From Nitrosomonas sp. (lineage in GTDB: Bacteria > Pseudomonadota > Gammaproteobacteria > Burkholderiales > Nitrosomonadaceae): a stretch of DNA of 37,242 nucleotides. Under the pieces are notes generated by a model. The model ran no database searches and was not told where the DNA came from. It was given only the letters and a program-made list of their open reading frames with translations. The translations under genes and the position numbers were made by a program. Positions 1-22,666 of the stretch are shown here, piece after piece. The DNA is taken from NCBI GenBank assembly GCA_021774155.1, contig JAJFJH010000228.1, forward strand, positions 1-37,242, read 5' to 3'. The first letter of the stretch is position 1, and each line of letters starts with the position of its first letter.

Positions 1-54
1 AAATGCACTCCCCAGGTTGTTAAAGCCAAACAAATGTTTCTAGCAAAAAGGTAA
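1..54 (+). CDS. possible C-terminal end of an upstream gene truncated by the window edge (KCTPQVVKAKQMFLAKR*)
   Basis: Frame 1 is open from base 1 to TAA at 52-54, 7 nt before the next ATG. Too short to identify; another frame is also open over much of this stretch. Confidence 0.3.
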   Translation, partial: KCTPQVVKAKQMFLAKR

Positions 55-61
55 ATCATCC

Positions 62-1534
62 ATGGGGATACTTAGTTTATTACTTTTGACGCCTGCTGTC
101 GGTATTCTTGTACTAGCAGTTACGCCACACCATAAAACTAACCATATTCGTGTCATTGCAAATTATTTTGCAATCTTCGCTTTCCTGATTAGTTGTTATC
201 TGGTTGCTATTTATGACCAGCAATTTAGTGGATTACAGTTTGAGCAACAGTTTACGCTTAACGCTAAACTAGGCACAGTTATAGCGCTGGGGATAGATGG
301 TTTGTCGTTGCCAATGCTAGTTTTGGCGACATTACTAACTTCTATTGCGTTACTTGCTTCATTTAGTATTACTGACAAAATAAAGGGTTACTATATTAGT
401 ATTCTTTTATTAGAATTTGGAATGCTGGGTGTGTTTCTCTCACAAGATTGGACGTTGTTTTATATCTTCTGGGAAGTAACTTTAGCGCCGTTATTCTTCC
501 TTATTGGTCGATGGGGTGGTGTGCGACGGCATGTAGCAAGTCTTAACTTCGTTCTCTACACTATGGGCGGATCAATTTTCATGTTGATCAGCTTGCTAGC
601 GATTAGTCAATATATGCCAGTACATGGTGGCACATTGATGTCATCCATGAGTATAGCAGCCCAAAGTATGCCGAAAGATGAGCAAGTTTGGGTGTTAATC
701 GGATTTCTGATCGGCTTTGGTGTCAAAATGCCGATTTTCCCGTTGCATGGTTGGTTACCTCTTGCACACGTGGAAGCACCGAGTCCTGTTAGTATTTTGT
801 TGTCAGGCATCTTGTTGAAAATGGGTGCTTATGGATTAATTCGAGCAGTTGTTATGCTGCCGGAAGCGGCACAGACATTACAGCCAGTACTTGTTTTCCT
901 GGCATTGTTTGGGATGATTTACGGCGGATTATTAGCTTGGCGACAAACCGATCTCAAGGCAATGGTGGCCTATTCCTCTGTGAGCCATATGGGTATCGTG
1001 CTACTAGGAATTGCGACGTTAAACATAACTGGTTTGACGGCAGCCGTTTTACAAATGACCGCTCACGGTCTAATAGCTGGTGCAATGTTTTTATTAGTTG
1101 GTTTGCTTTATGAGCGAACGCATACCCGTAATATTTTGGATTACAGCTCATTAGTTCAGGTGATGCCGCGCTTTGCTTTGTTCATGACAATTACCTTATT
1201 TGCAGCAATGGGGCTACCTGGTACTGTTGGTTTTGTTGCTGAACTTCATACTTTCATTGGTGGTTTTCAAGAATGGGGCTTCTTAATGGTATTTCTTGGC
1301 ATTAGCATACTTATTGGTGCCGCATATGCAATGCGCACAATAGGTATGTTATTTACGGGGCCTGTAAAACCGCAAATGCGCAATATTGAAGATTTGAGAA
1401 TTAACGAGCTGATTGCTGCAGGTGTGTTAGTTTTTGCAATAGTGTTATTTGGTATATGGCCTGCACCGTTGATTGATCTTTCAATGGCGACCATCACCCA
1501 AATGAATGACATTATTAACCTCCGTATTCAATAG
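62..1534 (+). CDS. NuoM/MrpD-like proton-translocating membrane subunit (DAB-associated paralog a)
   Basis: 490 aa polytopic protein with antiporter-family motifs FWEVTLAPLFFLIG, GFGVKMPIFPLHGWLPLAHVEAPSPVSILLSGILLKMGAYG and PGTVGFVAEL. Confidence 0.9.
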   Translation: MGILSLLLLTPAVGILVLAVTPHHKTNHIRVIANYFAIFAFLISCYLVAIYDQQFSGLQFEQQFTLNAKLGTVIALGIDGLSLPMLVLATLLTSIALLASFSITDKIKGYYISILLLEFGMLGVFLSQDWTLFYIFWEVTLAPLFFLIGRWGGVRRHVASLNFVLYTMGGSIFMLISLLAISQYMPVHGGTLMSSMSIAAQSMPKDEQVWVLIGFLIGFGVKMPIFPLHGWLPLAHVEAPSPVSILLSGILLKMGAYGLIRAVVMLPEAAQTLQPVLVFLALFGMIYGGLLAWRQTDLKAMVAYSSVSHMGIVLLGIATLNITGLTAAVLQMTAHGLIAGAMFLLVGLLYERTHTRNILDYSSLVQVMPRFALFMTITLFAAMGLPGTVGFVAELHTFIGGFQEWGFLMVFLGISILIGAAYAMRTIGMLFTGPVKPQMRNIEDLRINELIAAGVLVFAIVLFGIWPAPLIDLSMATITQMNDIINLRIQ

Positions 1535-1546
1535 GATTAGGATGCT

Positions 1547-4500
1547 ATGACTTCTGAATTTCAAGATCAACGTGGGCGTATTATTGCTGCATTGAATCAT
1601 TTGGATCATGTTCTGCCGGGGCAGGGTCCGATCCATGAATTTGTGCATCACAACACCATTCATGGTTTTCAACATTTTCCTTTTGAAAAAGCTTTGGAAG
1701 AATATGAAGCATTGACGGGAACTTATGGTTATTTGCCGGAAATACAAAATAGAGCGCTTTATCAGCAGGGACGAATTACTGATGCGGACTTATCAGCAGC
1801 ATTAGCACATGCACAAGAGTTACAAGCAGGTGATGATGTTTTTCATTCTGAAAAGTTAACAATAAAACGTAAAGATATCTATAAGGTGGCTTTGCTGCAT
1901 GATTTGCAGTCTGTAACAAGGAGTCAACTTAGCTGGCAGATAGAAGAGTTAAATGCGCTAGAAAAAATTCAGGAAGATGTGCCAGATCAGCCTCGAAATC
2001 GCATGCTTTTACAATCCTCTGATCAGAATCTAGTTGTTAAGCAGCTGTGGGACAGCATATTAGATAAGCTGGATATTGAATTGTCAGACTTGCATCCCGA
2101 AAATATGCTTGATTTATCGGAAGAAAATGCTAGAGACTGGTTAGAGAAAATTAATGCAAGTCATGCTGGCGGTGATGATGTTTCTGTTCACCAAAAAATG
2201 CAACAAGAAGCTGAAGTCCAGCTTGAAGCAATGATGGCGCAAATAGGTGATCAAATCACATTACGTGGATTGCTTATGGCGCTTTGTGGTACAGACATAC
2301 TTTACTCCGTTCGCCCCCAAATTATCCGTATTTGCGCGTCAGCAATGGATGAAGGTGTCGCAGCATGGCAATTGCCAGAGCGTAGTAAACTTGGCATGTA
2401 CGCAGCATGGAGATTATCAGTTCAATATGATGTGAATTCTTTTTTACATGATTTGCCTGACTGGCAGCGTATTGTCTCAGAGTCACCAGAAGATGCGGTG
2501 GATTGCATCATTCAGCAGCTACAGTACCTAGAAATGCCCGAGGAAAAGTGGGAGGGTTATCTGCAGGGTTTAGCTTTGGAAATGCCTGGTTGGTCTGGGC
2601 TAGTCAACTGGCGTCAGCATAATCCAGGTTATCATACTGATAATAATGCTGAGATGCATTTGGCAGATTATTTGGCTATTCGTATAACGTTAGGTCGATT
2701 ATGGCTTGACCAAGCTTGCCATGATAATTGGAAAATAAATGCTAAATTAGGGACAATACTATATTATTTTCGTAATAATCTCTCAGAGTTTATGGTGCGT
2801 AAACAGTTGTATCAAGGTAAATTACCTGAGTATTTGACACTCATGGCTAAAGATCTAATCCAACGGACGGGATCGGAGCGACAGCATCAAGATGAGTGGA
2901 AGAATCTCGCTGATTTAATGTGGACGTGGCAATTCAGCCCAATGTCACAAAATGGCGATGGTCATGATGTGTTTAATAGTGGTTGGCGACTTTTCCGCTT
3001 GTGTCAGCATTTAGGTTTGAATGCTGATGATATTAAAGATATGCACAAGAATGATTTGGTGCAAATGCAGAGCATCCTCGATAAATTTATTGCGCCTGAA
3101 CGTAGTAAAGTCTGGCTTTATGCTTATGAATACCATTATAGAGAAGACTTTTTCCATGCGGTTAATGCAAATCTTAAGCGAGGTCGATGGGCTAAAAGAG
3201 ATCAGCGACCAGAAGCACAGGTTGTTTTTTGTATCGATGAACGGGAAGAAAGTATACGTCGTCAATTAGAAGAGATTAATCCAAAGATTGAAACATTAGG
3301 TGCTGCTGGTTTTTATGGTCTACCTATGAATTATAAAGGCCTTGATGATCACCATAGAACGGCATTATGTCCAATCGTAGTTGTACCATCTCATAATGTT
3401 GATGAAGTGCCAAGAGAAGGTACTGAAACAATCGTTGATGCGCATAATAAAGGACGCAATTTCTACCAGAGAATTGCTTATTTAATGAATCAATCACTGC
3501 GGCGTAGCTTGATTATCTCTTATGCCATGATTGATATCTTAGCGCCTGCTGTATTTGTTGGTTTGTTGGGAAAAACTTTTTTGCCTAAACAACTGATAGC
3601 CTTTAATAGTTCCATGCGGCAAAAGATAGATGCAAAAGTACCTACAGAATTGTTCTTTACAGCTTCTGAAGAGGACGCAAAAAATGAAGCTACTCCTGCC
3701 AATCCTCGTCTAGGGTTTACTGATGTAGAGCAGGTAGACAGAATAGAAGGGTTTCTGCGTAATACCGGTTTAACTTATGGGTTTTCAAAAATTGTAAGTT
3801 TAATGGCACATGGGTCGACAAGCCAGAATAATCCTCACGAAGCAGCTCATGACTGCGGTGCATGTAGTGGAAAGCGTGGTGGGCCTAATGCTCGCTTGTT
3901 TGCGGCGATGGTCAATCGTCCAGTAATTCGAAAAATGTTGGCTGAAAGAGGGATTGAAATTCCGGAGGATACCTGGTTTTTAGGTGCGGAACATGATACA
4001 TGTAGTGATGTCGTTACTTGGTATGACACAGAGGATGTTCCTGAAGCCTTAAAGCCGAGTTATGAAAAGCTTAGAGATGATCTTATTGAAGGGAGAAACG
4101 CCTCAGCTCAAGAGCGATGTCGTCGGTTTTTCTCAGCTAATAATCCTAAAACCCCTGCGGCTGGGATTGAACATGCACACCTGCGTTCTAATGACTTAAG
4201 CCAAGTACGTCCAGAATATGGGCATGCTACAAATGCTTCGGCTATTGTCGGGCGACGTTCTGTGACACAAGGAATATTCCTGGATAGACGACCATTTTTA
4301 ATCTCATATGATGCTACCCAGGATCCAGATGGTAAATACTTAGAAAACGTCTTGCTAGCAGTTGGTCCTGTTGGCGCGGGTATTAATCTTGAATATTATT
4401 TCTCAACAATTGACAATGAACGTTTTGGTTGTAGCACTAAGATCCCACATAATATTACGGGTCTTTTTGGTGTCATGGAAGGTACCAATAGTGACTTGAG

Positions 4501-4825
4501 AACAGGCTTGCCTAAACAAATGGTTGAGATTCATGAGCCATTACGGTTACAGATCTTGGTAGAAGCAAAGACGGAAATACTTGGCGAAATTTATGGACGT
4601 CAAGAAAGTATCCAAGAGCTAGTTGGTGGTGGTTGGGTGTTGTTAAGTGCTATAGATCCAGAAACTGGTGAAATATCAGTGTTTGAGCGTGGTGTTGGTT
4701 TCGTGCCTTGGCAACCGACAGATAAAGATATTCCAATATGTGATACATCCACAGAATACTTCCAGGACATGAATGATCCGTTGCCTCCTGTTTTAGTCAA
4801 ACAACCAAACTTAACAGGAGCTTAA
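1547..4825 (+). CDS. DUF2309 / DabA-like putative inorganic carbon transporter subunit (large form)
   Basis: 1092 aa. N-terminal FVHHNTIHGF motif; VVFCIDEREESIRR; AHGSTSQNNPHEAAHDCGACSGKRGGPNAR. C562/D564/H755/C770 match the C-D-H-C zinc-site pattern known for DabA. Confidence 0.92.
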   Translation: MTSEFQDQRGRIIAALNHLDHVLPGQGPIHEFVHHNTIHGFQHFPFEKALEEYEALTGTYGYLPEIQNRALYQQGRITDADLSAALAHAQELQAGDDVFHSEKLTIKRKDIYKVALLHDLQSVTRSQLSWQIEELNALEKIQEDVPDQPRNRMLLQSSDQNLVVKQLWDSILDKLDIELSDLHPENMLDLSEENARDWLEKINASHAGGDDVSVHQKMQQEAEVQLEAMMAQIGDQITLRGLLMALCGTDILYSVRPQIIRICASAMDEGVAAWQLPERSKLGMYAAWRLSVQYDVNSFLHDLPDWQRIVSESPEDAVDCIIQQLQYLEMPEEKWEGYLQGLALEMPGWSGLVNWRQHNPGYHTDNNAEMHLADYLAIRITLGRLWLDQACHDNWKINAKLGTILYYFRNNLSEFMVRKQLYQGKLPEYLTLMAKDLIQRTGSERQHQDEWKNLADLMWTWQFSPMSQNGDGHDVFNSGWRLFRLCQHLGLNADDIKDMHKNDLVQMQSILDKFIAPERSKVWLYAYEYHYREDFFHAVNANLKRGRWAKRDQRPEAQVVFCIDEREESIRRQLEEINPKIETLGAAGFYGLPMNYKGLDDHHRTALCPIVVVPSHNVDEVPREGTETIVDAHNKGRNFYQRIAYLMNQSLRRSLIISYAMIDILAPAVFVGLLGKTFLPKQLIAFNSSMRQKIDAKVPTELFFTASEEDAKNEATPANPRLGFTDVEQVDRIEGFLRNTGLTYGFSKIVSLMAHGSTSQNNPHEAAHDCGACSGKRGGPNARLFAAMVNRPVIRKMLAERGIEIPEDTWFLGAEHDTCSDVVTWYDTEDVPEALKPSYEKLRDDLIEGRNASAQERCRRFFSANNPKTPAAGIEHAHLRSNDLSQVRPEYGHATNASAIVGRRSVTQGIFLDRRPFLISYDATQDPDGKYLENVLLAVGPVGAGINLEYYFSTIDNERFGCSTKIPHNITGLFGVMEGTNSDLRTGLPKQMVEIHEPLRLQILVEAKTEILGEIYGRQESIQELVGGGWVLLSAIDPETGEISVFERGVGFVPWQPTDKDIPICDTSTEYFQDMNDPLPPVLVKQPNLTGA

Positions 4826-4826
4826 G

Positions 4827-6395
4827 ATGGATTTTTTGGCTGTATTTATACCGCTGTTACCATTATTGGCTGCAATTATTATTGGTTCTTGTCATTTTTT
4901 TGACAAAATTAGTGGTAGAGAGGGAGAAAGTACGACTGTCGCTATTGCAAAAAATGCTATTGTGGCTTCTTGCTTTTTATCGATTGCGCTTTTTATTTTT
5001 GACCTGCTGGGATTGAATAAGGGTTCATTTTATGCTGGGCAATGGCTTACAAGTGACATACTGAGTATTGAAATAAATTTCATTACGGGTGGATTTAATG
5101 TCTTTGCAGCTTTATTGTTTTCTATTATTCTGGTCATTATTACTCGGTTTTCAGTTAACTACATTCATAAGGAAGCCGGATTTCATCGTTTCTTCTTTAC
5201 GCTGAGTTTGTTTTCTTCTGCCATACTTTTGATAATGTTATCAGGTAATGCTGTAAGTACTTTCATAGGTTGGGAGATTGCCGGAGTATGTTCATATTTC
5301 TTAATATTATTTGCCTATGATCGACCTATCGCAACAATTAACGCAACACGCGTTTTTGTTACCAATCGTGTGGGTGACGTCGGGTTTTTGTTAGGTATTG
5401 GTTTATCTTTTTACTACGCAGGAACAGTCAACTGGATTGACTTAAATTATTTTGCTGAGCAGCTAACTATGCCAACAGCGACTGTTATTAGTTTGTGTTT
5501 TGTTGTGGCCGCGATAGCTAAATCTGCACAGTTACCTTTTACACCCTGGTTAGCAAGGGCAATGGAGGGACCAACGCCTTCAAGTGCATTGTTTTATGGT
5601 GCAGTTATGATCCATGCAGGTATATTTTTGGTGATTTTACTTCGACCGATAATTGAACAAGCACCTTTAACCATGGCGTTGTTGATTATTGTCGGATTGT
5701 TTACTGCGATATACAGTCTTATCGTTGGTTTAACTCAGACTGATGTAAAAAGCTCTATATGCTTTGCGATTACAGGCCAGATTGGTTTAATGTTTCTAGC
5801 TTGTGGATTAGGATTTTGGGAATTGGCAACTTGGCATCTATGTGCACATGCTGTGGTGAGAGGCTATCAAGTTATGACAGCACCATCATTGTTGCACTAT
5901 GTACATGGCAACCCAATGAGACCAATATCGAAAAGTATTGCAAATCAACGTTGGTTATATATTGCATCGTTACAACGTTTTTGGTTGGATCCAATCATTG
6001 ATCGTACGTTAGTTAGACCGATTAACGGATTAGGCCGAGATCTGGAATATTTTGATAATGAAGTTATTGATAGAGCAATGGGAACACCCACATCGGCAGC
6101 TATGGCGATCTCATCACTGGCTCAATTAGAACAAAAGACATTAACCAAACAACCTAATCTAGAACTTAATGAATTGGCTAGGGGTAAAGGTTTTGCAGGC
6201 AATTTGTTGGAATGGATGGCAAGTGCCATGAGCTGGTTTGAAGAACGACTGGTTCTACGTGGTGTTGGTGTAGGAATGGTTGATATTGGTCGCCAGCTTG
6301 GTCATGCTGCGAATACGTTTGAGAAACTGCAACTTAAACCACGTTATCTTGTTTTATTTGTATTTCTGGTTTTGATGTTTGCGTCTTCAATTTGA
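4827..6395 (+). CDS. DabB/NuoL-like membrane subunit
   Basis: 522 aa; FIGWEIAGVCSYFLI, AIAKSAQLPFTPWLARAMEGPTPSSALFYGAVMIHAG and WHLCAHAVVRGYQVMTAPS, typical of the NuoL-like protein partnered with DUF2309. Starts 1 nt after the dabA-like stop. Confidence 0.9.
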   Translation: MDFLAVFIPLLPLLAAIIIGSCHFFDKISGREGESTTVAIAKNAIVASCFLSIALFIFDLLGLNKGSFYAGQWLTSDILSIEINFITGGFNVFAALLFSIILVIITRFSVNYIHKEAGFHRFFFTLSLFSSAILLIMLSGNAVSTFIGWEIAGVCSYFLILFAYDRPIATINATRVFVTNRVGDVGFLLGIGLSFYYAGTVNWIDLNYFAEQLTMPTATVISLCFVVAAIAKSAQLPFTPWLARAMEGPTPSSALFYGAVMIHAGIFLVILLRPIIEQAPLTMALLIIVGLFTAIYSLIVGLTQTDVKSSICFAITGQIGLMFLACGLGFWELATWHLCAHAVVRGYQVMTAPSLLHYVHGNPMRPISKSIANQRWLYIASLQRFWLDPIIDRTLVRPINGLGRDLEYFDNEVIDRAMGTPTSAAMAISSLAQLEQKTLTKQPNLELNELARGKGFAGNLLEWMASAMSWFEERLVLRGVGVGMVDIGRQLGHAANTFEKLQLKPRYLVLFVFLVLMFASSI

Positions 6396-6402
6396 GGATT
6401 TG

Positions 6403-7989
6403 ATGGATACTGTAAATATAACCCTATGGTCGGAAACGGCGGCGTTTCCGTTGTTAACGACATTAACGCTGATTCCACTAATAGCGATGCTTGTAGTGTT
6501 GTTGTTACCTTCGGCAGTTTTAGCGTTGCGTACTGGCTTCGTTGCGACAATACTAACTATTTCACTTAGTATTTATCTTCTGTTTGTTTTTGAAACTGAT
6601 CGTCCCGGCGTTCAATTGTACGAACAGTTTCAGAATATAATTTTTAACTATTCTGTTGGTGTTGATGGCGCAAGTATTTTATTTATACCCTTAACAGCCA
6701 TACTAATGCTTGTGGCGTTAATTTATACATTAACGACTCGGCGTTCTTCAGACAGGATACACATTGCCTGCATACTTGGGTACGGTGCCATTTTAATTGC
6801 AGCGTTCTCAGCAATGAATGCTCTGCAATTCTGGTTTGCATGCTTACTTGAGCTAGTTCCTATTGTAATAATGACTATTCGTGGTGGTTCTGGGCAGAAT
6901 CGACGCTGGGTTGTTGCGCTATTATTGCAGCATTGGGGTAGTGGCTTGTTAATGGTGCTGTGTGGCTTCTTGATGCTTGGGTTTGGTGTCATGGGATCAA
7001 GTGATGCGGTATCGTTTGATTGGACTGTGCTCCGACATAGTGATGCAACGCTAGAGTATGCAACATTAATTTTTATCCTGCTATTTTTTGGCTTTGCCAT
7101 CCGTATGCCATTATTTCCATTTCATGGATGGTTGCCCGTACTTGCAGAGCAGGGAACGATTGCCAGTGCAGGTATCTTCTTAATTGGACTAAAACTCGGA
7201 ATTTATGCCGTTATTCGGGTTGTTATTCCTTTCTTGCCAGAAGTTGCTGAACAGTGGACTGATTTCGTATTGATACTTGGACTAATTGGTATTTTTTACG
7301 GCGCACTTTTAGCATTAATGCAAATAAATATCCGTCGTTTATTGGCTTTTGCTGTGATCAGCCAAACAGGTATGTTGATTATTGGTGTTTTTGACTTCAA
7401 TACTTACGGTATGGAAGGAAGTATCTTGCTCTCTCTCACCTTTGGCCTTGCAACGGCCGGCATATTGTTTGCCATTGGTATGATTTATAAGCGAACACAT
7501 ACCTCATTTATCCCACGTTTAGGTGGCATGTTTGATTCCAATGCCGCCATCGCTGTTTTATTTGTGGTCTGTGCGTTGAGTACAATGGTCATGCCTGGAA
7601 CGCCTGGATTTGACGGTATTCACTTGTTAGTGGAAGGAACGATTAAAGGTTTTGGTTGGATTGTTTCTATCGCGATACTTTTTGGTAATGTTTTAGCCGC
7701 CGCATTATTGCTACGTGCTTTTCAACAGATTTTCATTGCTGATCCAAAACGTTTTCAAGGTCCTTTTGTATATTCTCCAAAAGTCAGTACGCCGCCTTCG
7801 CGTAAGAATGAAGGCATAATTGCGGCGGTCATTTGTACATTAATTGTCAGTGTTGGCTTGAATACGTCACCCTGGATACATATGATAGATCAAGGTGTGT
7901 CACCGATGAGCGAATTGCGCTCAACGTCTTATTATGAACAACATTCTGATACTGTATTGACTAACACCAAGGACACCGAAGATGAGTGA
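6403..7989 (+). CDS. divergent NuoM-like membrane subunit (paralog b)
   Basis: The ORF track starts at 6379, but ATG 6403 (MDTVNITLW) has GAGG a few nt upstream and does not overlap the previous gene. Motifs GFAIRMPLFPFHGWLPVLAEQG, IGLKLGIYAVIR, LLALMQINIRRLLAFAVISQTG. Confidence 0.85.
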   Translation: MDTVNITLWSETAAFPLLTTLTLIPLIAMLVVLLLPSAVLALRTGFVATILTISLSIYLLFVFETDRPGVQLYEQFQNIIFNYSVGVDGASILFIPLTAILMLVALIYTLTTRRSSDRIHIACILGYGAILIAAFSAMNALQFWFACLLELVPIVIMTIRGGSGQNRRWVVALLLQHWGSGLLMVLCGFLMLGFGVMGSSDAVSFDWTVLRHSDATLEYATLIFILLFFGFAIRMPLFPFHGWLPVLAEQGTIASAGIFLIGLKLGIYAVIRVVIPFLPEVAEQWTDFVLILGLIGIFYGALLALMQINIRRLLAFAVISQTGMLIIGVFDFNTYGMEGSILLSLTFGLATAGILFAIGMIYKRTHTSFIPRLGGMFDSNAAIAVLFVVCALSTMVMPGTPGFDGIHLLVEGTIKGFGWIVSIAILFGNVLAAALLLRAFQQIFIADPKRFQGPFVYSPKVSTPPSRKNEGIIAAVICTLIVSVGLNTSPWIHMIDQGVSPMSELRSTSYYEQHSDTVLTNTKDTEDE

Positions 7990-9481
7990 TATTAATTTTC
8001 CACTATTAACGCTTATTATTCTGCTGCCTTTATTAGGTGCCATTGCGGTAGGTTCTGTCAGTAATGTCAAACAAGCCAAGACGATTGCATTGGGCATTGC
8101 TAGTTTTGAATTATTACTAACGCTTCTTGCCTTACTGTTTTTTGACAGCGCCAATGCTGACTTCCAGTTAGTTGAGCAATATGCGTGGATACCGCTATTA
8201 AATATTGAGTATCTCGTTGGTGTTGATGGCATTTCTATACTATTTTTGCCATTGACTGCATTATTGACAATTGTTGCGATGCTGGCTTGCTGGAACTCCA
8301 CACAATACAATCCGCGTTTTCATTTTTCATTATTGTTGGCGCTTGAAGGTGTAACAATTGGTGTGTTTTGTGCCTTAGACATGATGTTATTTTTCTTGTT
8401 CTGGGAACTAACATTGCCGCCATTTTTATTCCTGATTGGGCTGTGTGGTATTGGTTCACAACGACGTAGTGCCGCAATGAAATACACATTGTTTATGTTG
8501 TTTGGTGGTGTTCCATTATTATTAGCAATTATTATTCTGGCATCAAATCATGCGCTTCAGATAGGTGGTAGCATACCGTATGACTTGTCTTTTAGTTTGC
8601 CTGTATTGTTAGAAACGCCGTTACATGAGAACTTGCAGACTGTTGTATTTATGTTGTTATTATTTGGTTTTGCGGTAAAAGCGCCGCTGGTGCCTTTCCA
8701 TACATGGTTGCCAGCAGCGGCGATGGAAGGACCGACTCATATTGTCGCGTTATTGATGGGTCTGAAACTCGGTTTATACGGCATTCTTCGGTTTACTATG
8801 CCGTTGGCACCAACGGCTACAGTTGAATTTATTTGGATGCTATCAATACTGGGTGCCATTACACTCGTTTATGGTGCTTTGATAGCTTTGCAACAAACCA
8901 ACTTGAGACGCTTACTTGCATATGCCAGCATTAGTCATGTTGGATTGGTTATAGTTGGTATTGCATCACTCAATATGCAAGGTGTACAAGGTGCAGTATT
9001 TCAAATGCTTAACTTCACATTGATTGCCAGCGCTTTAATTCTTATCGCCGGATTTATTCAACACCGTTTAGGCAGTACTGATGTAATTCACTTGGGTGGT
9101 CTAGCTAAAGTAATGCCTAAACTGACTTGTTTGTACTTTTTATTTGTACTTGCCAGTATTGGAATTCCAGGTACCAGTGGTTTTCCCGCTGAATTTTTAA
9201 TGATTGTCGGTGCTCTGTCGGCAAATACGGGCTTAGGAATTGCCGCGTTGGCAGGTGCGATTTTGGGTGCTGCCTATATGCTGTCATATACGCGCCGTGC
9301 TTTTTTAGGTCCGATTAAGCATAACGATGTTCTCCAAACGCAAGATTTACAAAAGCGCGAATTACTTTTACTTTGTGTACCTGCATTTTTAGTTCTACTT
9401 TTTGGTTTCTTCCCAGGTATGATTTTGAGTGTTAACGAGGCGGCCTCGCAAGCTTGGTTGTCACGTATACCTTTTGACTAG
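7982..9481 (+). CDS. NuoM-like membrane subunit (paralog c)
   Basis: 499 aa; FFLFWELTLPPFLFLIG, GFAVKAPLVPFHTWLPAAAMEGPTHIVALLMGLKLGLYG, PGTSGFPAEF. Start overlaps the upstream gene by 8 nt. Confidence 0.9.
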   Translation: MSDINFPLLTLIILLPLLGAIAVGSVSNVKQAKTIALGIASFELLLTLLALLFFDSANADFQLVEQYAWIPLLNIEYLVGVDGISILFLPLTALLTIVAMLACWNSTQYNPRFHFSLLLALEGVTIGVFCALDMMLFFLFWELTLPPFLFLIGLCGIGSQRRSAAMKYTLFMLFGGVPLLLAIIILASNHALQIGGSIPYDLSFSLPVLLETPLHENLQTVVFMLLLFGFAVKAPLVPFHTWLPAAAMEGPTHIVALLMGLKLGLYGILRFTMPLAPTATVEFIWMLSILGAITLVYGALIALQQTNLRRLLAYASISHVGLVIVGIASLNMQGVQGAVFQMLNFTLIASALILIAGFIQHRLGSTDVIHLGGLAKVMPKLTCLYFLFVLASIGIPGTSGFPAEFLMIVGALSANTGLGIAALAGAILGAAYMLSYTRRAFLGPIKHNDVLQTQDLQKRELLLLCVPAFLVLLFGFFPGMILSVNEAASQAWLSRIPFD

Positions 9482-9509
9482 TGAATAAATATCTAAGCTA
9501 TTGATTAAT

Positions 9510-9548
9510 AAAAACGGGCAAACCAAATTACTTGGCTTTCCCGTTTTT
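9510..9548. terminator. bidirectional intrinsic terminator between convergent operons
   Basis: Perfect 9-bp stem AAAAACGGG (9510-9518) / CCCGTTTTT (9540-9548), with further CCAA/TTGG pairing inside. It has a T-run on both strands and lies between the convergent genes ending at 9481 (+) and 9592 (-). Confidence 0.85.
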
Positions 9549-9591: not shown

Positions 9592-11523
9592 TCACGCAAC
9601 CTTAGGTTCAGTTGAATTGTTTAGCTTTTCATGGTGATACGTATTACGTAAAAAAGACTCAAACATTAATAGCGTCCATAGTGGTGCGCTATAGTCTCTT
9701 CTCCCTGATTGATGGTGATCAAGCATTTCTTCAAGAAACTTAATATTAAATATGCCTGTTTCAGCCAGTACCGGGCCAAGTATCGCACTGCGCAGTCGTT
9801 CACGTAACTCACCTCTAAACCAACTTGCGATCGGAATGGAGAACCCCATTTTGTCTCGATAAAGTATATTGTCTGAAAGATAGGGTTCTAGTGATTTTTT
9901 AAATATGTACTTGCCTTCCGTACCTTTTAATTTAAGAGAAGCAGGCAATCCTGAAATCCACTCGACTAATTCATGATCCAACAGCGGTACTCGGACTTCT
10001 AAGGAATGCGCCATGCTGGCTCTGTCCACCTTGGTAAGAATGTCTCCAACAAGATACGTCTTGATGTCTAAATATTGCACGCTCGATAATGCATCTTCTG
10101 CAGGACACTGATTTGCGTGTTCTCTTAAAACTTCGATTGCATGATAATCTTGTAAATCATTTTTGAATGAAGGAGTGAATAGACGTTGCCGCATTTTGTT
10201 ATCCATAATCGATACACTATGAAAGTAGCCTTCTACAGAATCGCGAGCTAACGCTTCAAAGGTTGATTTTGCTCGTAAAACTTTAGGTGCCCAATCAGCC
10301 TTAGGATAAAGATTTCCTAATAAACCAAATAGTGGTTTACGTATTTTGTGTGAAAGTACTGATCTGGTTTTCTCTTCATACATATGCCAGCGATATCGAC
10401 GGTACCCAGCCAAATTTTCATCGCCTCCATCACCCGATAAGACCACAGTGACATTTTTCTTTGCCAGCTCACAGACGCGGTAAGTAGGCATTGCTGAACT
10501 GTCTGCAAAAGGTTCGTCATATAAAGCAGCTAATTTGTCAATTAGATCAAAGTCGTTTTGCCCAACTTGTTCAACGTAATGTTTGGTTTGATAACGATTA
10601 GCAACTTCCTGAGCATAGGAAGATTCATTAAACTTTGGGTCGCCAAAAGAGATAGAGCAAGTGTTGACGGGTTCGTCCATCAAACCACTCATCATTGCTA
10701 CGACAGCACTAGAATCTACGCCGCCGGATAGAAATGCGCCAAGGGGTACTTCTGTCATTAAATGGATATTGACTGAATCGCGTAATTTAGTAATTAATTC
10801 TTCTTGAGCTTCTTGTTCACTGATGGCGTCATGTGGTGTGAATGGTACGTCCCAGTATTGCTTTGGTTGCAGTGATGTTTGTCCTCTACGTACGGACAAA
10901 CTGAAGCCGGGAGAAAGTTTGTTGGCTTGTTTAAATATTGTTTTTGGCTCTGGTATATAGCCGTAAGAAAAGTAATCTTCAATCGCACGAGGGTCCATTT
11001 CTCGATTAAAATCAGTGTGAGCTAGAATTGCTTTAAGTTCAGAAGAGAAGATGAACGATCCATTTTCAAGTAATGCATAGTAAAACGGTTTTATGCCTAG
11101 CCGGTCTCGAGCCATAAAAAGTGTTTCTTGGTTACGATCCCATAAACCAAACGCGAACATGCCGCGGAAACGCTCAACGCAACGCTCACCCCATTCTTCC
11201 CAGGCATGTACGATTACCTCAGTGTCACTGTGAGTACGAAATTTATGGCCAAGTGCCGTTAATTCATTAACGAGTAATTTGAAATTATAAATCTCACCAT
11301 TGAATACAACGACAACGCTGCCGTCTTCGTTAAAGAGTGGTTGCTGACCACTAGATACATCAATAATAGATAAACGGCGATGTCCCAAACCAATTCCTGG
11401 TTCAGTGTAGATATCACCTTCGTTGGGTCCACGATGAACTTGTGTTTGGTTCATGCGTTCAAGCTGTTGTTTGTCTATTTCACTTTTTCTGTGTATATCA
11501 AACAGACCAACAATCCCACACAT
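9592..11523 (-). CDS. asparagine synthase-like amidotransferase, exosortase A system-associated (TIGR03108-like)
   Basis: 643 aa; MCGIVGLFD Ntn-glutaminase start, LGHRRLSIIDVSSGQQPL, PLGAFLSGGVDSSAVVAMM PP-loop; genomic context. Confidence 0.92.
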   Translation of the reverse strand: MCGIVGLFDIHRKSEIDKQQLERMNQTQVHRGPNEGDIYTEPGIGLGHRRLSIIDVSSGQQPLFNEDGSVVVVFNGEIYNFKLLVNELTALGHKFRTHSDTEVIVHAWEEWGERCVERFRGMFAFGLWDRNQETLFMARDRLGIKPFYYALLENGSFIFSSELKAILAHTDFNREMDPRAIEDYFSYGYIPEPKTIFKQANKLSPGFSLSVRRGQTSLQPKQYWDVPFTPHDAISEQEAQEELITKLRDSVNIHLMTEVPLGAFLSGGVDSSAVVAMMSGLMDEPVNTCSISFGDPKFNESSYAQEVANRYQTKHYVEQVGQNDFDLIDKLAALYDEPFADSSAMPTYRVCELAKKNVTVVLSGDGGDENLAGYRRYRWHMYEEKTRSVLSHKIRKPLFGLLGNLYPKADWAPKVLRAKSTFEALARDSVEGYFHSVSIMDNKMRQRLFTPSFKNDLQDYHAIEVLREHANQCPAEDALSSVQYLDIKTYLVGDILTKVDRASMAHSLEVRVPLLDHELVEWISGLPASLKLKGTEGKYIFKKSLEPYLSDNILYRDKMGFSIPIASWFRGELRERLRSAILGPVLAETGIFNIKFLEEMLDHHQSGRRDYSAPLWTLLMFESFLRNTYHHEKLNNSTEPKVA

Positions 11524-11588
11524 ATTATTTTTCCTTTTTTAGATTTATTTTCACTGAAAGTAAGTTCAATGAGGTTTGCATATGGTTT

Positions 11589-12731
11589 TTAATGTAAAAC
11601 TTTGTCATAGACGCTCAAATAAGCATTCATCATTGCGTCCATGCTAAAGTTTGCTTCGATCTGTTGGCGTGCTGCTGCACCATGATCTTTTACTAATTGA
11701 GCGTCGGTGTAGTAGTTTAATATCGCTTCCGCCATTTCATTTAGATTGCCGGCCTCAATGAGTTTTCCGGTAACGCCTTGTTTAACCAACTCGACATTTC
11801 CACCAACACGGGTGGCGACAACAGGTAGTCCACAAGACATTGCTTCTAGAATCGTATTAGAGATACCTTCTCCAAGTGAAGGCAGTACAAACAAATCCAT
11901 TGATTGCATGAGCACCGGAATGTCTGTTCTTTCGCCAGGAAACCAAACAAGGTTTTCAATATCCTCTTTTTTTGTTAATTCCATACACTCATTACGTGTA
12001 ATTCCTTCACCGACGATTAATAGACGAAGATGCTTGCGAGCGGATGGTTGTTTCTTAAGGGTCTGTATGAAAGCGCGAACTAACGTAGGGTAATCTTTTA
12101 CTGCGGCCATTCTTCCAACACTGCCAATAACAAATGTGTTTTCACCAAAGAAACCTGTTGGACCTAATTCAGTTGGTTTTTTTAGGTTTGTATGGAAACG
12201 ACGATTATTAACACCATTATAAATTTGCGTAATTTTATTGGGCGATACACCAATTGTGTTAACCAACCATGTTTCGAGGTCTTTACTTACAGCGATGAAA
12301 TGATTAATAAATGGGCTGATTAATTGTCGCAGTAAATTATATTTGCGGTTGTCGCCATTAAGATCAAACATGTCTCGGCCATGTTCCCCGTGTATCCGTG
12401 CTTTCACACGAGCTACGACTGAAATAAGTTGTGCTTCCATTGTGCCAAGATTTCTTGTATGAACAATATCAGGGTTCAACTGCCGCAGTGCTTTAAAAAG
12501 ATTAAGATATAACTTAGGATCAAGGCCTTCTTCTTTATTCAATGCAATTATTTTCACATCTTTTCTGGTTATCCGTTGATAAAAATCGGTATACCCTTTT
12601 AAACATATAATTGCGTGCCGGTAACGATCAGACGGTATATGGTTAATAAGATTAACCAGACCGTTTTCTAATCCGCCAATATCAAGATGGTAGATGACAT
12701 GAACAATAAGAGGTGGTTTTCTTGAATTCAC
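11589..12731 (-). CDS. glycosyltransferase, PEP-CTERM/XrtA system-associated (TIGR03088-like)
   Basis: 380 aa GT-B/GT4 type: VIYHLDIGGLENGLVNLI, VGRMAAVKDYPTLVRAF, LPSLGEGISNTILEAMSCGLPVVATRVGG. Confidence 0.9.
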   Translation of the reverse strand: MNSRKPPLIVHVIYHLDIGGLENGLVNLINHIPSDRYRHAIICLKGYTDFYQRITRKDVKIIALNKEEGLDPKLYLNLFKALRQLNPDIVHTRNLGTMEAQLISVVARVKARIHGEHGRDMFDLNGDNRKYNLLRQLISPFINHFIAVSKDLETWLVNTIGVSPNKITQIYNGVNNRRFHTNLKKPTELGPTGFFGENTFVIGSVGRMAAVKDYPTLVRAFIQTLKKQPSARKHLRLLIVGEGITRNECMELTKKEDIENLVWFPGERTDIPVLMQSMDLFVLPSLGEGISNTILEAMSCGLPVVATRVGGNVELVKQGVTGKLIEAGNLNEMAEAILNYYTDAQLVKDHGAAARQQIEANFSMDAMMNAYLSVYDKVLH

Positions 12732-14303
12732 TTAAAAAGGCTCTTCTGCCTTATGTAGCCCAGCTAATATTGATGGCCTCAAATCGCTTAAAAATTTATT
12801 CATGGTGTCAGTAGCCTCATCTATTGAATCTTCATAATGACTGGCCAGTATTATCTCGGCGCCGCCGTCATTATTGGAAAAGAGCATGTTTTTTGCGAGT
12901 AGTGCTTTTGCAATATATGGGCTGATTGTTTCGATATCATCAAGCCAGTACCAACGCCAAACCAGTAGTTTAGAAGAACGTGAATGGAGTTGTGTTTCAC
13001 GAATTTTTAATTCTTGTGAATTTATAACAACAGTACGTGTTGTTTCATTGATATTGCGCCAAATGTCATCATCATCTTTTACTAAAATATTTCCAAAGTT
13101 AATGAGCTCATTGCCTTGATGCTGATTATGGTAGTAAGTGATAAAAAGACTAACCCTTTTATTATTATGTTGGTAATTATTGTAAAGTTTGGTAGGTTCA
13201 CCCACATAAATAGGTTCCCAACTAGTCATTGGTTCTGAGTTAACTGACCAGTCTTTTGAGGGATAATTTATTTCGATTTTGTGAATTGCATTCAAGCTTG
13301 TTTGTTTGTCTATATGGGAGGCAAATATTGGCCAGATTAGAGCAACAGAAAATACAGTGAAAGCCATTAATAAAGTTCGGTTAAGTGAAGAAGATGTGTT
13401 GATTTTGTTGTGGTTTTTGTTTGGGTGTGTCACTTGTTTTGCTTCATTGTTATCATCCTCACGCCAAAAAGAACCAGCCCAAAATAATAACAACATGACA
13501 AAGCCAAAAAATATCCAGCCATAAATCAGGTGGTCTACTCCGACTGCCAATGTCATCCCGCTTAAATGGCCTGTCATTACGATTAGATAAGCACGAATGC
13601 CATTGGCAATAATGGGTACGATTATCGATAGTATGATAAAGATAATTCGGCGTTTAAAGCTAAAATAAGTTAAATAGGCATACAGTGTGCCTAAGGTGAC
13701 TGACGCAATGAGATAGCGCAGTCCGCTACATGCTTCTACGACAGACCAGTTGCCTGTTGGCAGTGAGAAAAATGTACCCTCACGAAATACGGGCACCCCA
13801 GTTAATTGAAGCGCGCTTACCGTGAAGTCGGCGGTAAAATCAATGAGTGGTGGTATTAGTACATCTCCAAATGGCACCGCAAAAAAGAGATACACCAGCG
13901 GAAAAGTCGTTGCTATTAATAGGCGATTACCTAATATAGCCCAGACAATAATGGGTATCATGGCAACTAACATGTACTGTGTTACGATTTGTACACTGGC
14001 CAGTGTAGCAATAAGCCATGTGAAACCAATACCGCAGAGTGCTATTAATGCAAAAAAGTTAGGTTGGTGATCAAGTAATAGTAGCTGTCGCCGCCGTGTC
14101 CATATCATATAAATACTAAATGGCAGAATAAGAAACCCATGTGCATAAGTCTCTGAGCGATTCCACGTAGCAACCATAGACCATGTAGTTTGATGATAAA
14201 TGCCAAGAATTCCCAAGATAACCACAATTGTTATCGAAGAAGCCATCTTCAAACGATTATCAGTTGTCACATTAGATTGGTTTAGTGAAGTCTGTGCGTT
14301 CAT
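12732..14303 (-). CDS. xrtA: exosortase A fused to a C-terminal EpsI domain
   Basis: 523 aa multi-TM; conserved Cys (VVEACSGLRYLIAS), Arg (IIANGIRAYLIVMTGH) and His (VGVDHLIYGWIFFG) of the exosortase core, followed by a soluble EpsI-like region. Confidence 0.93.
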   Translation of the reverse strand: MNAQTSLNQSNVTTDNRLKMASSITIVVILGILGIYHQTTWSMVATWNRSETYAHGFLILPFSIYMIWTRRRQLLLLDHQPNFFALIALCGIGFTWLIATLASVQIVTQYMLVAMIPIIVWAILGNRLLIATTFPLVYLFFAVPFGDVLIPPLIDFTADFTVSALQLTGVPVFREGTFFSLPTGNWSVVEACSGLRYLIASVTLGTLYAYLTYFSFKRRIIFIILSIIVPIIANGIRAYLIVMTGHLSGMTLAVGVDHLIYGWIFFGFVMLLLFWAGSFWREDDNNEAKQVTHPNKNHNKINTSSSLNRTLLMAFTVFSVALIWPIFASHIDKQTSLNAIHKIEINYPSKDWSVNSEPMTSWEPIYVGEPTKLYNNYQHNNKRVSLFITYYHNQHQGNELINFGNILVKDDDDIWRNINETTRTVVINSQELKIRETQLHSRSSKLLVWRWYWLDDIETISPYIAKALLAKNMLFSNNDGGAEIILASHYEDSIDEATDTMNKFLSDLRPSILAGLHKAEEPF

Positions 14304-15514
14304 GTTGATTGAGCTTTTAATGGTTTGGATAGTAACTGGTCAATACGCATTAAATTATTTTCCCAGCTGTAGTTAGATAAAACAAAAGACCTAGCTGCTT
14401 GACCAATGGAGACAGTGTCACTTGATTGGAGTAATGCCATAATCTGTTGAGCGAAAGCTTTTTCGTCAGTAGCAACAAATAATTCTTTTTCAGGTGTTGC
14501 ATTGATGCCTTCTAAGGCTTGTGGAGACGTGATAACGACTTTTCCCATGGACATTGCTTCTAACACTTTGTTTTGTATTCCTCTTGCAATTCTTAATGGC
14601 GCCACAATAAGCGATGCATGAGCTAAGTAGGGTCTTGTTTCTTCAACAAATCCAGTGACAGTAATATTGGGTAGAGAGGCTAGCGCCTTAACTTGAGAGC
14701 TAGGCCGACTACCGACGATATAAAACTGTACATTTGGTCGGCTTGCAGAAATTTTAGGAAAAATTTCTTTAGCGAACCATTCAACCGCGTCTATATTTGC
14801 CCAGTAATCCATTGCGCCGGTAAACACAATGATTTCTGTTTGATTGGGATATGGGTTGTCATATTTCCTATCTGGCGTAAAAAAATCAGTATCAACGCCA
14901 TTGTTGAAATAGGTAACTTTATTTGCATCTTCTGGTGCTAGCTGTTGGAAAATATGGGCTTCTTTTTCTGAAACAAAACATGTGCTATCGAACTCTTGTG
15001 TTATTTTTCTCTCATAATCCAGCAATAATTTTGATTCACGTTGGTAAATCCAACTCTGTGGCCAAGATTTAGTCTCTGCGTATTGTCTCCATTTGTCTGA
15101 GTCAACATCAACAAGATCAATTACGCGGTGTAACGAGGAATGATGCCGCGTAAATTGTGCCATGGCAGCAGAGAAGATTAATGTTTTACGAATTGATTTT
15201 GTTTTAATAAGTGTGTTAACCCAATCTTGAAACTGCTTGTTTTTATAGAAAGCCAAGGTTAGCGGGTCATTATTGAATAATGCAGGTAGACAATGGAGAC
15301 GTGCAACTAATGGATTGAGGCTTACAATGTATGTTTCAGCACAAAGGCTTTTAACTTTGTTAACGTATTTCCAATCATCCTTATCATCAATAAAAGTTCC
15401 AAGATGAACGCGATAGTTCTGGCTCAAGTGTTTTAATAAATGATAAGAGCGTATTTTGTCACCCTTGTTTGGCGGGTAGGGGATTCGATGGGTAAGATAA
15501 AGAATATCTTCCAT
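14300..15514 (-). CDS. glycosyltransferase, PEP-CTERM/XrtA system-associated (TIGR03087-like)
   Basis: 404 aa; MEDILYLTHRIPYPPNKGDKIRSYHLLKHL, VFTGAMDYWANIDAVEWFA, RIARGIQNKVLEAMSMGKVVITSPQALEG; 4-nt overlap with xrtA. Confidence 0.92.
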   Translation of the reverse strand: MEDILYLTHRIPYPPNKGDKIRSYHLLKHLSQNYRVHLGTFIDDKDDWKYVNKVKSLCAETYIVSLNPLVARLHCLPALFNNDPLTLAFYKNKQFQDWVNTLIKTKSIRKTLIFSAAMAQFTRHHSSLHRVIDLVDVDSDKWRQYAETKSWPQSWIYQRESKLLLDYERKITQEFDSTCFVSEKEAHIFQQLAPEDANKVTYFNNGVDTDFFTPDRKYDNPYPNQTEIIVFTGAMDYWANIDAVEWFAKEIFPKISASRPNVQFYIVGSRPSSQVKALASLPNITVTGFVEETRPYLAHASLIVAPLRIARGIQNKVLEAMSMGKVVITSPQALEGINATPEKELFVATDEKAFAQQIMALLQSSDTVSIGQAARSFVLSNYSWENNLMRIDQLLSKPLKAQST

Positions 15515-15515
15515 G

Positions 15516-16577
15516 TTAACCTAGGTTCTTCACAATATGTGGGCCAACTAAATTAGCAACAGAAAGTGGTAGTTTTCGCCAGGCTTTAATAAACAACTGA
15601 TACTTAGGATTCAGAGGATTGTGGTCAGGTATTTCCTTGGCTTTAACGAGCTGGTATTCATAATGCAGTGGTTGTGGCTCGAATCCCCAGTTCTTTTTGA
15701 AACTAAAGGAGCCGGTATTACGTTTGCTTCGACCAAAATCGAAAGTTTTGACTCCCTTTTCACAGGCTAGGCGCATTAATTCCCAATACATAAAGTCATT
15801 GGCCGCGAGGTTTCTAGCGCTATCAGTTCCACCACCGTAATAAGGTAAGACTTCATCACGGAAATAAAAACTCATGACGCTACTAACTGTTTTGTCATCT
15901 TTAGTGATAATCATTAATTCACAGTCTTCAGCAAAAACCTCTTTGAGTAGTTGAAAATACTTCTTAGAGAAAACAGGTGTACCCAAACGATGAACGCTTG
16001 TTGCGTATGCAAAGAAGAAACGTTCAATATCTTGGTCGATAACGCTTTGCAGTTCAGCTTTAATCCCTTTGCGAACCATGGCGCGTTGTTTGCGTGGAAT
16101 TGCTTGCATGTTTTTTTCCACGTCAGGATCAATCTCTTTACGAAAAGTGACATAAAGGTCTTTAGTTGGCCAACCTGAATGTTGTGTCTCACGATTACGG
16201 TATTCTAAAAAGTCGACGCTTAGTTGTGTGGCTAATGCTTGAGCGGCTTGATCAAGCGCTTCCCAGGCTTGTTCGTTAATTGCGGCAATACCACCATAGA
16301 CACAGAAGGGGAGTGCACTCAGAGAGTGTCCAAAGAGAACGCTTTTGACCTCAGCTAAAGGAAGTACGCCTAGAATATCACCATTAACTTCAGCATAAAG
16401 AAACCAAGTTTTATGTCCAAAAGCACGCTCGATTACTGTTTTCCAGCCCGCTCGATGAAAGAAAGTGGCATCTGGACAACTTGAAATGAATTGATCCCAT
16501 CTTTCATAATCTTCTGGTTGCATATAGTGAACAGAGGGTGGTGTTATTGATACCGGATCATCGAGTTCTATTGACAT
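15516..16577 (-). CDS. FemAB-like acyl/aminoacyl transferase, XrtA-associated (TIGR03019-like)
   Basis: YYGGGTDSARNLAANDFMYWELMRLACEKGVKTFDFGRSKRNTGSFSFKKNWGFEPQPL. The ORF track begins at 16634, but Met at 16577 (MSIELDDPVS) removes a 43-nt overlap with the upstream gene. Confidence 0.88.
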   Translation of the reverse strand: MSIELDDPVSITPPSVHYMQPEDYERWDQFISSCPDATFFHRAGWKTVIERAFGHKTWFLYAEVNGDILGVLPLAEVKSVLFGHSLSALPFCVYGGIAAINEQAWEALDQAAQALATQLSVDFLEYRNRETQHSGWPTKDLYVTFRKEIDPDVEKNMQAIPRKQRAMVRKGIKAELQSVIDQDIERFFFAYATSVHRLGTPVFSKKYFQLLKEVFAEDCELMIITKDDKTVSSVMSFYFRDEVLPYYGGGTDSARNLAANDFMYWELMRLACEKGVKTFDFGRSKRNTGSFSFKKNWGFEPQPLHYEYQLVKAKEIPDHNPLNPKYQLFIKAWRKLPLSVANLVGPHIVKNLG

Positions 16578-16591
16578 AATATTGCAAGCGC

Positions 16592-17437
16592 TCACGAAAT
16601 TTGTGGTAGAAATATGTGATCCATACGGCCCCATTTAAAATCATGGGTTAACAATCGGAGCCTTCCTTCCATTCGTTGCAAATTTAGATAATGACGAAAA
16701 CGTGTTTTTAAATTAATGCCTTCTTGGCGAGGTTGTTCATAGTCAATTTCCCATGGGTGAAAATAGAAAATTGCCGGCTGAGTATCAACCTGATTGACTC
16801 TGTTTAAGAACCAACGCGAAACGGAGTAAGGCCATAGCCTGAAATAACCGCCGCCGCCAGCAGGGACATTGTGACCAAATAGTCGTGTGGTCGTGACAGG
16901 CAACTCAAGTAAACCTTTGCCTTCTGGCGGGTAAAAACCAAAACGTGGCGCATCAGGCATACCGTAGTGATCATGCTGTACAGGATAGATGCTGGAGCTA
17001 TACTGGTACCCTGCCTCTTGGAGAAATTCCAAAGCCCATAGGTTTTTGTGATTAATGGAAAAACTAGGTGCGCGGTAACCTAATACGGACTGACCGCTAA
17101 TATCTTCTAATAATGCTTTACTTTGCGTAATGTCTTCTTTAAATTCCGATGGTTGTTGATCTGTAACTCTGTAGTGTGACCAACCATGACTAGCGATCTC
17201 ATGCCCATTTTCCAGCATACGTTTGATCATTGATGGATAACGTTTGGCAACCCAACCTAAGGTGAAAAAAGTGGCTTTTATTTGTTTATCATCCAGCAAT
17301 AAAAGTATGCGATCTATATTTTTTTCAACCCGGCATGGCAGGGACTCCCATGCTTCTCTTGGAATATGGGATGCAAAAGCAGAAACCTGAAAATAGTCTT
17401 CAACATCAATTGTCATGGCGTTGCGTATTGATTTCAT
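16592..17437 (-). CDS. polysaccharide deacetylase (NodB fold), XrtA-associated (TIGR03006-like)
   Basis: 281 aa; AMTIDVEDYFQVSAF, ATFFTLGWVAKRYP, NGHEIASHGWSHYRV, GYRAPSFSI, FYFHPWEID. Confidence 0.93.
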   Translation of the reverse strand: MKSIRNAMTIDVEDYFQVSAFASHIPREAWESLPCRVEKNIDRILLLLDDKQIKATFFTLGWVAKRYPSMIKRMLENGHEIASHGWSHYRVTDQQPSEFKEDITQSKALLEDISGQSVLGYRAPSFSINHKNLWALEFLQEAGYQYSSSIYPVQHDHYGMPDAPRFGFYPPEGKGLLELPVTTTRLFGHNVPAGGGGYFRLWPYSVSRWFLNRVNQVDTQPAIFYFHPWEIDYEQPRQEGINLKTRFRHYLNLQRMEGRLRLLTHDFKWGRMDHIFLPQIS

Positions 17438-17473
17438 TTGTTTTCTTGGTTGGATATTTGTGAATAATAATCG

Positions 17474-18472
17474 TTATGACTTGTCTTTTTCTGTTCTACT
17501 TTTTACGCTGGATAGCGACAGAACCTGTTTTAATAAATCTAAAACAGAAATAACGGATTTCTCCATTTTATTGAGACGTTCATCCATTTGTTCAACACTG
17601 GGGTTATTATTTGTGGTGTCAGGGGGTAGATTGGGCTCGTCTAATTCTAAACCTGAAGAATCAAATTCTTGCTGGATATCTTGAACGACTTCACTCACTT
17701 CATGAACGCCAAAACTGTGTAGTTCATCAAGGTAACCCATTATTAACATACGGTCACAGAGGGTGTTGATTTTACGTGGGATACCGCCGCTTTGTTCATG
17801 TATAAGCGGAAAAGCCTCGTCTTGTATAACAGGGTTACCTTGCCAGCCAACCGTATTTAAACGATGCTCAATATATGCTCTGGTTTCCAAGGCGTCCATT
17901 GGACCTAAATGATAGGTGGCGATGACGCGTTGGCGTAGTTGTTGCATATTATTGCCTAGTAATATCCGCCTAAATTCTGGTTGGCCAAGTAAAAAAGTTT
18001 GTAGAAGTGGTTTGTCGTCTGTTTGATAGTTAGACAGCATCCTTAGCTGTTCAAGTGTGTCGGCTGAAAGATTCTGTGCTTCATCGACCACTAAAAGTGC
18101 GCGTTTACCTTGCTGATCACATTGACGAAGAAATTTCTCCAACTCAAGCAGTAGGGAAGCCTTAGTTATGTTTTCAGTATTTAACCCAAACGCTGCTGCA
18201 ACCATTCTTAATACGTCATCGGCATTCAAATATGTGTTTACGATCTGTGCGGAAATGATCTCTTCACATTCAAGTTTCTTAAAGAGCGTGCGCATGAGTG
18301 TGGTTTTACCTGCGCCAACTTCTCCAGTGATAATAATGAATCCCTCGCCTTGCGATAGGCCGTACTCTAGATAGGCCATGGCACGGTTGTGGCCTTTGCT
18401 GGCAAAGAAAAAACTCGGATCAGGCTGCAGTTGGAATGGTTTCGCAGTCAGACCGTAAAAAGATTCGTACAT
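17474..18472 (-). CDS. ExeA/MSHA-type AAA ATPase, XrtA-associated (TIGR03015-like)
   Basis: 332 aa; MYESFYGLTAKPFQLQPDPSFFFAS, Walker A GEVGAGKTTLMRTL, Walker B ALLVVDEAQNLS. Confidence 0.93.
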   Translation of the reverse strand: MYESFYGLTAKPFQLQPDPSFFFASKGHNRAMAYLEYGLSQGEGFIIITGEVGAGKTTLMRTLFKKLECEEIISAQIVNTYLNADDVLRMVAAAFGLNTENITKASLLLELEKFLRQCDQQGKRALLVVDEAQNLSADTLEQLRMLSNYQTDDKPLLQTFLLGQPEFRRILLGNNMQQLRQRVIATYHLGPMDALETRAYIEHRLNTVGWQGNPVIQDEAFPLIHEQSGGIPRKINTLCDRMLIMGYLDELHSFGVHEVSEVVQDIQQEFDSSGLELDEPNLPPDTTNNNPSVEQMDERLNKMEKSVISVLDLLKQVLSLSSVKSRTEKDKS

Positions 18473-18482
18473 TATTTTCCTT

Positions 18483-22607: not shown

Positions 22608-22666
22608 GTTTTAGATGCTCCTTTGGAGGATGAAATGAGTTTTCTCGGAACAAGAAAAAATCATCA

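Follow-up and report, generated by a model that had tools for sequence, protein, structure and literature searches.

Organization of the operon

The window analyzed here is a stretch of 37,242 nucleotides from Nitrosomonas sp. It is an entire contig of its assembly (JAJFJH010000228.1, C144 in our numbering), and its position 1 is the contig end. Five packed genes on the plus strand, in the order M1-DabA-DabB-M2-M3, and a terminator occupy positions 62–9548, with the last gene ending at 9481. M1 (62–1534, 490 residues) and M3 (7982–9481, 499 residues) encode NuoM-like antiporter subunits, as indicated by their open reading frames, Pfam and NCBIfam matches, and residue alignments. DabA (1547–4825, 1092 residues) belongs to PF10070 and was assigned with Pfam and by comparison with PDB entry 9rd0. 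Its residues 650–685, approximately (3494–3601, plus strand), align to the membrane 'finger' of DabA2. DabB (4827–6395, 522 residues) is a NuoL-like protein with a shortened C-terminus, and M2 (6403–7989) is a divergent NuoM-like subunit. The start of M2 is either the ATG at 6403, 7 nt past the DabB stop, or an overlapping TTG at 6379. The gaps between M1 and DabA and between DabA and DabB are 12 and 1 nt, respectively, and the last 8 nt of M2 are shared with M3.

An intrinsic terminator is located at 9510–9548 on the plus strand (AAAAACGGG...CCCGTTTTT hairpin), with a fold energy of –14.7 kcal/mol and a z score of –3.05 in the folding test. It is absent from the output of a simple consensus scan, which was uninformative for both terminators and promoters. 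The original prediction had described five tightly packed genes on one strand with exactly these spacings, ending at a terminator and encoding one DUF2309 protein and four antiporter-like membrane subunits, and all of these features are borne out. The arrangement is far beyond chance, its order being kept in dozens of genomes.

What remains of the spacer preceding M1 is a stub of 61 bases (1–61), which differs at a single position from the Usp-M1 spacer in the closest relative. As position 1 is the contig end, the gene upstream of M1 lies off the contig. Downstream of the operon, a long block of genes on the reverse strand covers 9592–23296. The first of these encodes an asparagine-synthase-like protein (PF00733), and the second resembles a glycosyltransferase gene; the block probably consists of polysaccharide genes unrelated to the DAB operon.

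DabA matches PF10070 over its full length (E value 5.7e-244, profile positions 2–747 of 747), and the other four proteins all match PF00361. The scores of M1 and M3 with the NuoM model of NCBIfam (TIGR01972), 470 and 465 bits, are above its cutoff of 263.8, and M2 falls just short with 263.5. The closest NCBIfam model for DabB is NuoL, but the match covers residues 4–361 only. In a tree of antiporter-like proteins, M1, M2 and M3 form separate supported clades, with M2 as the long-branch sister of M3 (support 0.992), and DabB groups with most of the DabBs from two-gene systems (support 1.0). The three subunits had been described as NuoM-like paralogs. This stands for M1 and M3; M2, with its long branch and its own charged residues (see below), is no ordinary NuoM paralog. 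The predicted structure of DabB (pLDDT 80.6, with low confidence at the C-terminus) supports a NuoL-like core for this protein. For DabA, a model built on 14 close sequences was of poor quality (pLDDT 58.7) and was set aside.

The antiporter-like subunits are homologous to those in the membrane arm of complex I (NDH-1) and in Mrp antiporters, with conserved channel residues. In contrast to those systems, the operon encodes only PF00361 and PF10070 proteins: it has no NuoA/B/C/D/H/I/J/K genes, and MrpB/C/E/F/G genes are absent from both the operon and the rest of the window. Redox and connecting subunits of complex I were found neither within the operon nor upstream of it in the relatives that were read, in keeping with the earlier claim that NADH- and quinone-binding Nuo subunits are missing. 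Complete Nitrosomonas genomes with the operon carry a separate nuoL-nuoM-nuoN cluster elsewhere. The DAB operon is therefore not a part of Nuo, and a displaced complex I is ruled out. The NdhF3 model (TIGR01960) gives DabB 144.6 bits, far below its cutoff of 588.7. In both the genome of the window and G059, nuoL and nuoN lie at contig ends (L198, L197, L200, L201), and nuoM falls exactly in the assembly gap between them.

A different arrangement was observed in genome G147 (L207:4874-16781), in which a 950-residue DabA is in an operon with genes for SulP, MrpE, MbhD/E-like, MrpB, MrpC, MrpD, NuoL-like and NuoM-like proteins. Here DabA is attached to a full Mrp-type set. No operon of this type was found in three other genomes of that family.

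Conservation and co-occurrence of the five genes

The survey of the family covered 125 genomes, one per species, 65 of which have a DabA match. The long type of DabA (about 1,092 residues, more than 50% identity) is present in about 50 of them, and the order M1-DabA-DabB-M2-M3 is found in the long-type loci examined, apart from those truncated at a contig end. DabAs of the family that are shorter or more divergent occur close to an ordinary DabB, without any of M1–M3.

The 80 nearest relatives (GTDB species genomes) include Nitrosomonas, Nitrosospira, Nitrosovibrio and Candidatus Nitrotoga, as well as Methylobacter, Methylomonas, Methylomicrobium, Methyloglobulus, Methylovulum and Crenothrix. 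The five-gene order is kept in these genomes except for truncations at contig ends and one locus (L128) where DabA alone was recognized. With wider sampling of the class and phylum, the order was also found around DabAs of about 42–48% identity in other Proteobacteria. The arrangement NuoM-DUF2309-NuoL-NuoM-NuoM, whose conservation the original prediction had proposed to check, thus recurs in nearly all the relatives examined.

Long DabA and M2 are both present in 49 of the 125 family genomes and both absent from 74, with one discordant genome in each direction (Fisher p = 1.5e-32, phylogeny ignored). One discordant genome (G002) has a DabA fragment at a contig edge, and the other (G060) is 75% complete. 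Moreover, in the genomes with a split operon that were checked, none of the five genes has been lost. DabA of G195 is on contig C55, with M1-DabB-M2-M3 together on C38. In G190 and G316, DabA is accompanied by a 1045-residue fusion of DabB and M2 that has two PF00361 stretches (L153:11299-14436, and also L154), and M1 and M3 are each located elsewhere in the genome. M3 in these two genomes is near a gene whose beginning resembles a beta-carbonic anhydrase, confirmed as beta-type with Pfam in G190. The natural fusion argues strongly, though indirectly, for DabB and M2 lying side by side in the folded complex. The conserved order, the co-occurrence, the persistence when unlinked and the fusion together bear out the earlier suggestion that the three extra subunits belong to the DAB system; that they could also alter its stoichiometry, coupling ion or direction is a conjecture.

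Some genomes carry more than one DAB gene set. Five-gene and two-gene DAB loci are found within a few kilobases of each other in three cases (L045, L130, L142), and a carboxysome-bearing Nitrosomonas has two tandem genes for 1047-residue DabAs with equal hit statistics (L052:6248-13200).

Active site, finger and channel residues

The closest system with a known structure is DAB2 of Halothiobacillus neapolitanus (DabA2/DabB2, PDB 9rd0), in which protons passing through DabB and the finger drive unidirectional CO2 hydration by DabA, at the expense of the proton motive force (PMF) (PMC13144422). DabA2 and DabB2 are sufficient in E. coli, and DAB1 of the same genus has a third small subunit (PMC13144422). 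The statement in the original prediction that the Halothiobacillus pump needs only DabA and DabB therefore applies to DAB2 and not to DAB1.

The Cys2His zinc site and the Asp-Arg dyad of DAB2 are shared by DabA of the window. The ligands Cys562, His755 and Cys770 and the dyad Asp564/Arg566, equivalent to Cys351, His524, Cys539 and Asp353/Arg355 in DabA2, are kept in all 60 sampled members of the clade. On the other hand, DabA here has 1092 residues compared to 870 in DabA2, and its N-terminal half carries insertions that the DabAs of two-gene systems lack. The finger may differ as well. Glu444 of DabA2, which is essential in DAB2 (PMC13144422), does not appear to be conserved in the five-gene clade: its column corresponds to Asp663 here and holds Asp in 30, Asn in 12, Ala in 6 and Leu in 5 of the 60 sequences, the alignment of the finger being uncertain. 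Asp663 itself is found in Nitrosomonadaceae. The Ala666-Pro667 pair in the finger region is conserved in the clade, as is a Lys/Arg residue (676) about ten residues further.

DabB resembles DabB2 in being a shortened NuoL-like protein. It lacks the equivalent of TM12-13 of NuoL, the similarity to which stops near residue 361, in agreement with its position in the tree among the two-gene DabBs. Glu150, Lys232 and Arg345 are invariant in DabB. The first of these is the TM5 glutamate of NuoL (Glu144), which is replaced by Ile151 in DabB2 (PMC13144422). This residue was considered as a hallmark of the five-gene type and rejected, as Glu is also present in 8 of 13 sampled DabBs from two-gene systems.

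The three additional antiporter subunits are a further difference from DAB2. M1 and M3 retain the four canonical residues of NuoM, GluTM5, LysTM7, LysTM8 and GluTM12, in all 28 orthologs sampled (see PMC9271201 for the numbering of channel residues in complex I). M2 had appeared to be a degenerate subunit, with its TM5 and TM12 glutamates seemingly lost in a mixed alignment. An alignment of 111 M2 sequences instead revealed a charged set of its own, with Arg242, His249, Lys272 and His415 invariant and Glu158 and Asp412 near-invariant (numbered from the 6379 start). M2 carries an Arg at TM7.

Carbon context and proposed function

The operon of the relatives is often flanked by genes for dissolved inorganic carbon (DIC), namely the bicarbonate transporters SulP and SbtA/SbtB and carbonic anhydrases. 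Of 29 Nitrosomonadaceae loci, 23 have SulP, SbtA or a carbonic anhydrase no more than 3 kb away. A CsoSCA2-like carbonic anhydrase is present in 22 of the 29 ammonia-oxidizer loci, usually 14–158 nt past M3 and for the most part in the same orientation (L036:17662-18735, L034, L042, L047 and others). SulP and/or a beta-carbonic anhydrase is near the operon in 10 of 32 methanotroph and Nitrotoga loci, both following M3 in some methanotrophs; no DIC gene was found within 3 kb in the other 22 or in 9 of 11 more distant loci.

CsoSCA2 proteins are non-carboxysomal homologs of CsoSCA that are known but unstudied, and a term search of the paper describing them found no mention of a linkage to DAB (PMC9164163). 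Judging from gene order, the five-gene DAB locus is a possible functional home for the CsoSCA2-like enzyme. The CsoSCA2-like gene is not in the window. In the genome of the window it is unlinked (L238, about 1565-2600, contig C386) and reads as broken, with in-frame stops and two frames; relatives have intact copies, and that of the nearest one is likewise unlinked.

Shell proteins of bacterial microcompartments (BMC) are found in 15 of the 125 family genomes, and they overlap with the five-gene type in one genome only (Fisher p = 0.004, phylogeny ignored). Therefore, the five-gene DAB mostly belongs to cells without carboxysomes. Ammonia oxidizers often pair DIC transporters with a cytoplasmic carbonic anhydrase, and models permit this without CO2 leak (reviewed in PMC10880623).

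We propose, with a probability of about two-thirds, that the operon encodes a five-subunit DIC-accumulating complex, a vectorial carbonic anhydrase driven by the membrane potential and equipped with a complex-I-like arm. The assembly of all five proteins into one complex, the CO2-hydrating activity, H+ as the ion and the contribution of M1–M3 are inferred from sequence comparisons. In this complex, catalysis would take place on DabA, a zinc-containing, beta-carbonic-anhydrase-like subunit at the cytoplasmic side of the membrane. DabB and the membrane finger of DabA would form the ion path that drives one-way hydration, M2 would dock onto DabB, and M3 and M1 would lengthen the arm as additional antiporter-like modules. 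The membrane potential would drive the conversion of CO2 to bicarbonate on DabA. In ammonia oxidizers the bicarbonate would feed free RuBisCO, with the CsoSCA2-type carbonic anhydrase and SulP/SbtA nearby. In methanotrophs it would feed carboxylases. Against the proposal stand the variable finger residue at Glu444 of DabA2, the methanotroph, Nitrotoga and more distant loci that have no DIC gene within 3 kb, and the fact that most methanotrophs are not CBB autotrophs.

By our own arithmetic, one H+ per CO2 at 150 mV allows an HCO3–/CO2 ratio of about 350. Summing four proton modules would be thermodynamically excessive and is hard to justify, and the extra modules therefore need another rationale. 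More plausibly, they would serve for gearing, for exchanging more than one kind of ion or for running at a low PMF. A more far-reaching version, which we advance tentatively and regard as somewhat doubtful, is a redox-free complex-I-like machine in which a chain of three or four antiporter modules is mechanically coupled to the hydration reaction of DabA. Its ion-to-CO2 stoichiometry would be geared unlike that of DAB2, allowing more bicarbonate to accumulate when the membrane potential is low, or a mixed exchange of H+ and Na+, in a carboxysome-independent CO2-concentrating system of nitrifiers and methanotrophs.

The sufficiency of two-subunit DAB2 in E. coli would also fit an operon in which DabA and DabB alone are the CO2 pump and M1–M3 are a co-regulated but separate Mrp-like or proton/cation antiporter, for example one that exports the hydration proton or supplies a sodium gradient. 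The DabA of G147, adjoining a full Mrp operon with MrpE, MrpB, MrpC and MrpD, points the same way. However, DabB is fused to M2 in G190 and G316, DabB of G195 sits with M1, M2 and M3 apart from DabA, and the MrpB/C/E/F/G genes are absent from the window, which makes a separate antiporter unlikely. A five-subunit, sodium-coupled bicarbonate importer in place of a CO2 hydratase, as proposed for MpsAB, appears quite improbable given the intact carbonic anhydrase site of DabA. MpsAB is Na+-dependent according to a report cited in PMC13144422, antiporter-like subunits are able to move Na+, and G147 joins DabA to an Mrp operon; the coupling ion, however, is not readable from sequence.

The catalytic site also bears on the COGNAT survey of 2017, which found that ybcC (COG3002, now DabA) upstream of nuoL (COG1009) is often joined by COG1008 (NuoM) and COG0659 (sulfate permease) (PMC5700660). 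Its authors postulated a new membrane complex and suggested that the count of membrane subunits determines how many ions are moved. The survey, which predates the characterization of DabA, suggested an exergonic DabA reaction driving ion export through the arm to generate PMF. The resemblance to the complex I arm agrees with this, but DabA has the catalytic site of DAB2, which consumes PMF (PMC13144422), and the CO2/HCO3– conversion offers too little free energy for several pumps. We consider a PMF-generating set very improbable. It is harder still to believe that M1–M3 are spare or alternative complex I subunits at this locus by chance: M1 and M3 do pass the NuoM family model, but the complete genomes have their separate nuoL-nuoM-nuoN cluster, and M1, M2 and M3 fall in their own clades and co-occur strictly with DabA.

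The idea that more subunits move more ions, which covers the core of the original prediction, was already published in 2017 (PMC5700660). Its 'clade C' neighborhood (DUF2309-NuoL-NuoM-SulP) is a cluster of the same kind, with a function not known at the time. Absent from that account, in its available part, are the exact five-gene set, the unlinked co-occurrence, the DabB-M2 fusion, the active-site tests and the linkage to carbonic anhydrase. Our literature search, which missed most subscription papers, turned up no experiments on the five-gene set. The cyanobacterial NDH-1MS/MS' complexes also hydrate CO2 on a complex-I-like membrane arm; in contrast, they are coupled to ferredoxin oxidation and use another CO2 protein, and the operon here has no redox genes. 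The five-gene set is real, conserved, coherent and uncharacterized, and it is of the DAC/DAB type rather than a categorically new system.

The DAB2 structure makes the proposal of a five-subunit DAB directly testable. If true, this DAB would be a natural experiment in which antiporter modules of the complex I type are coupled to a reaction free of electron transfer. Ammonia oxidizers, Nitrotoga and Methylococcales methanotrophs play a central part in the cycling of nitrogen and methane. Most ammonia oxidizers with the five-gene operon are without carboxysomes, which bears on how their RuBisCO is supplied.
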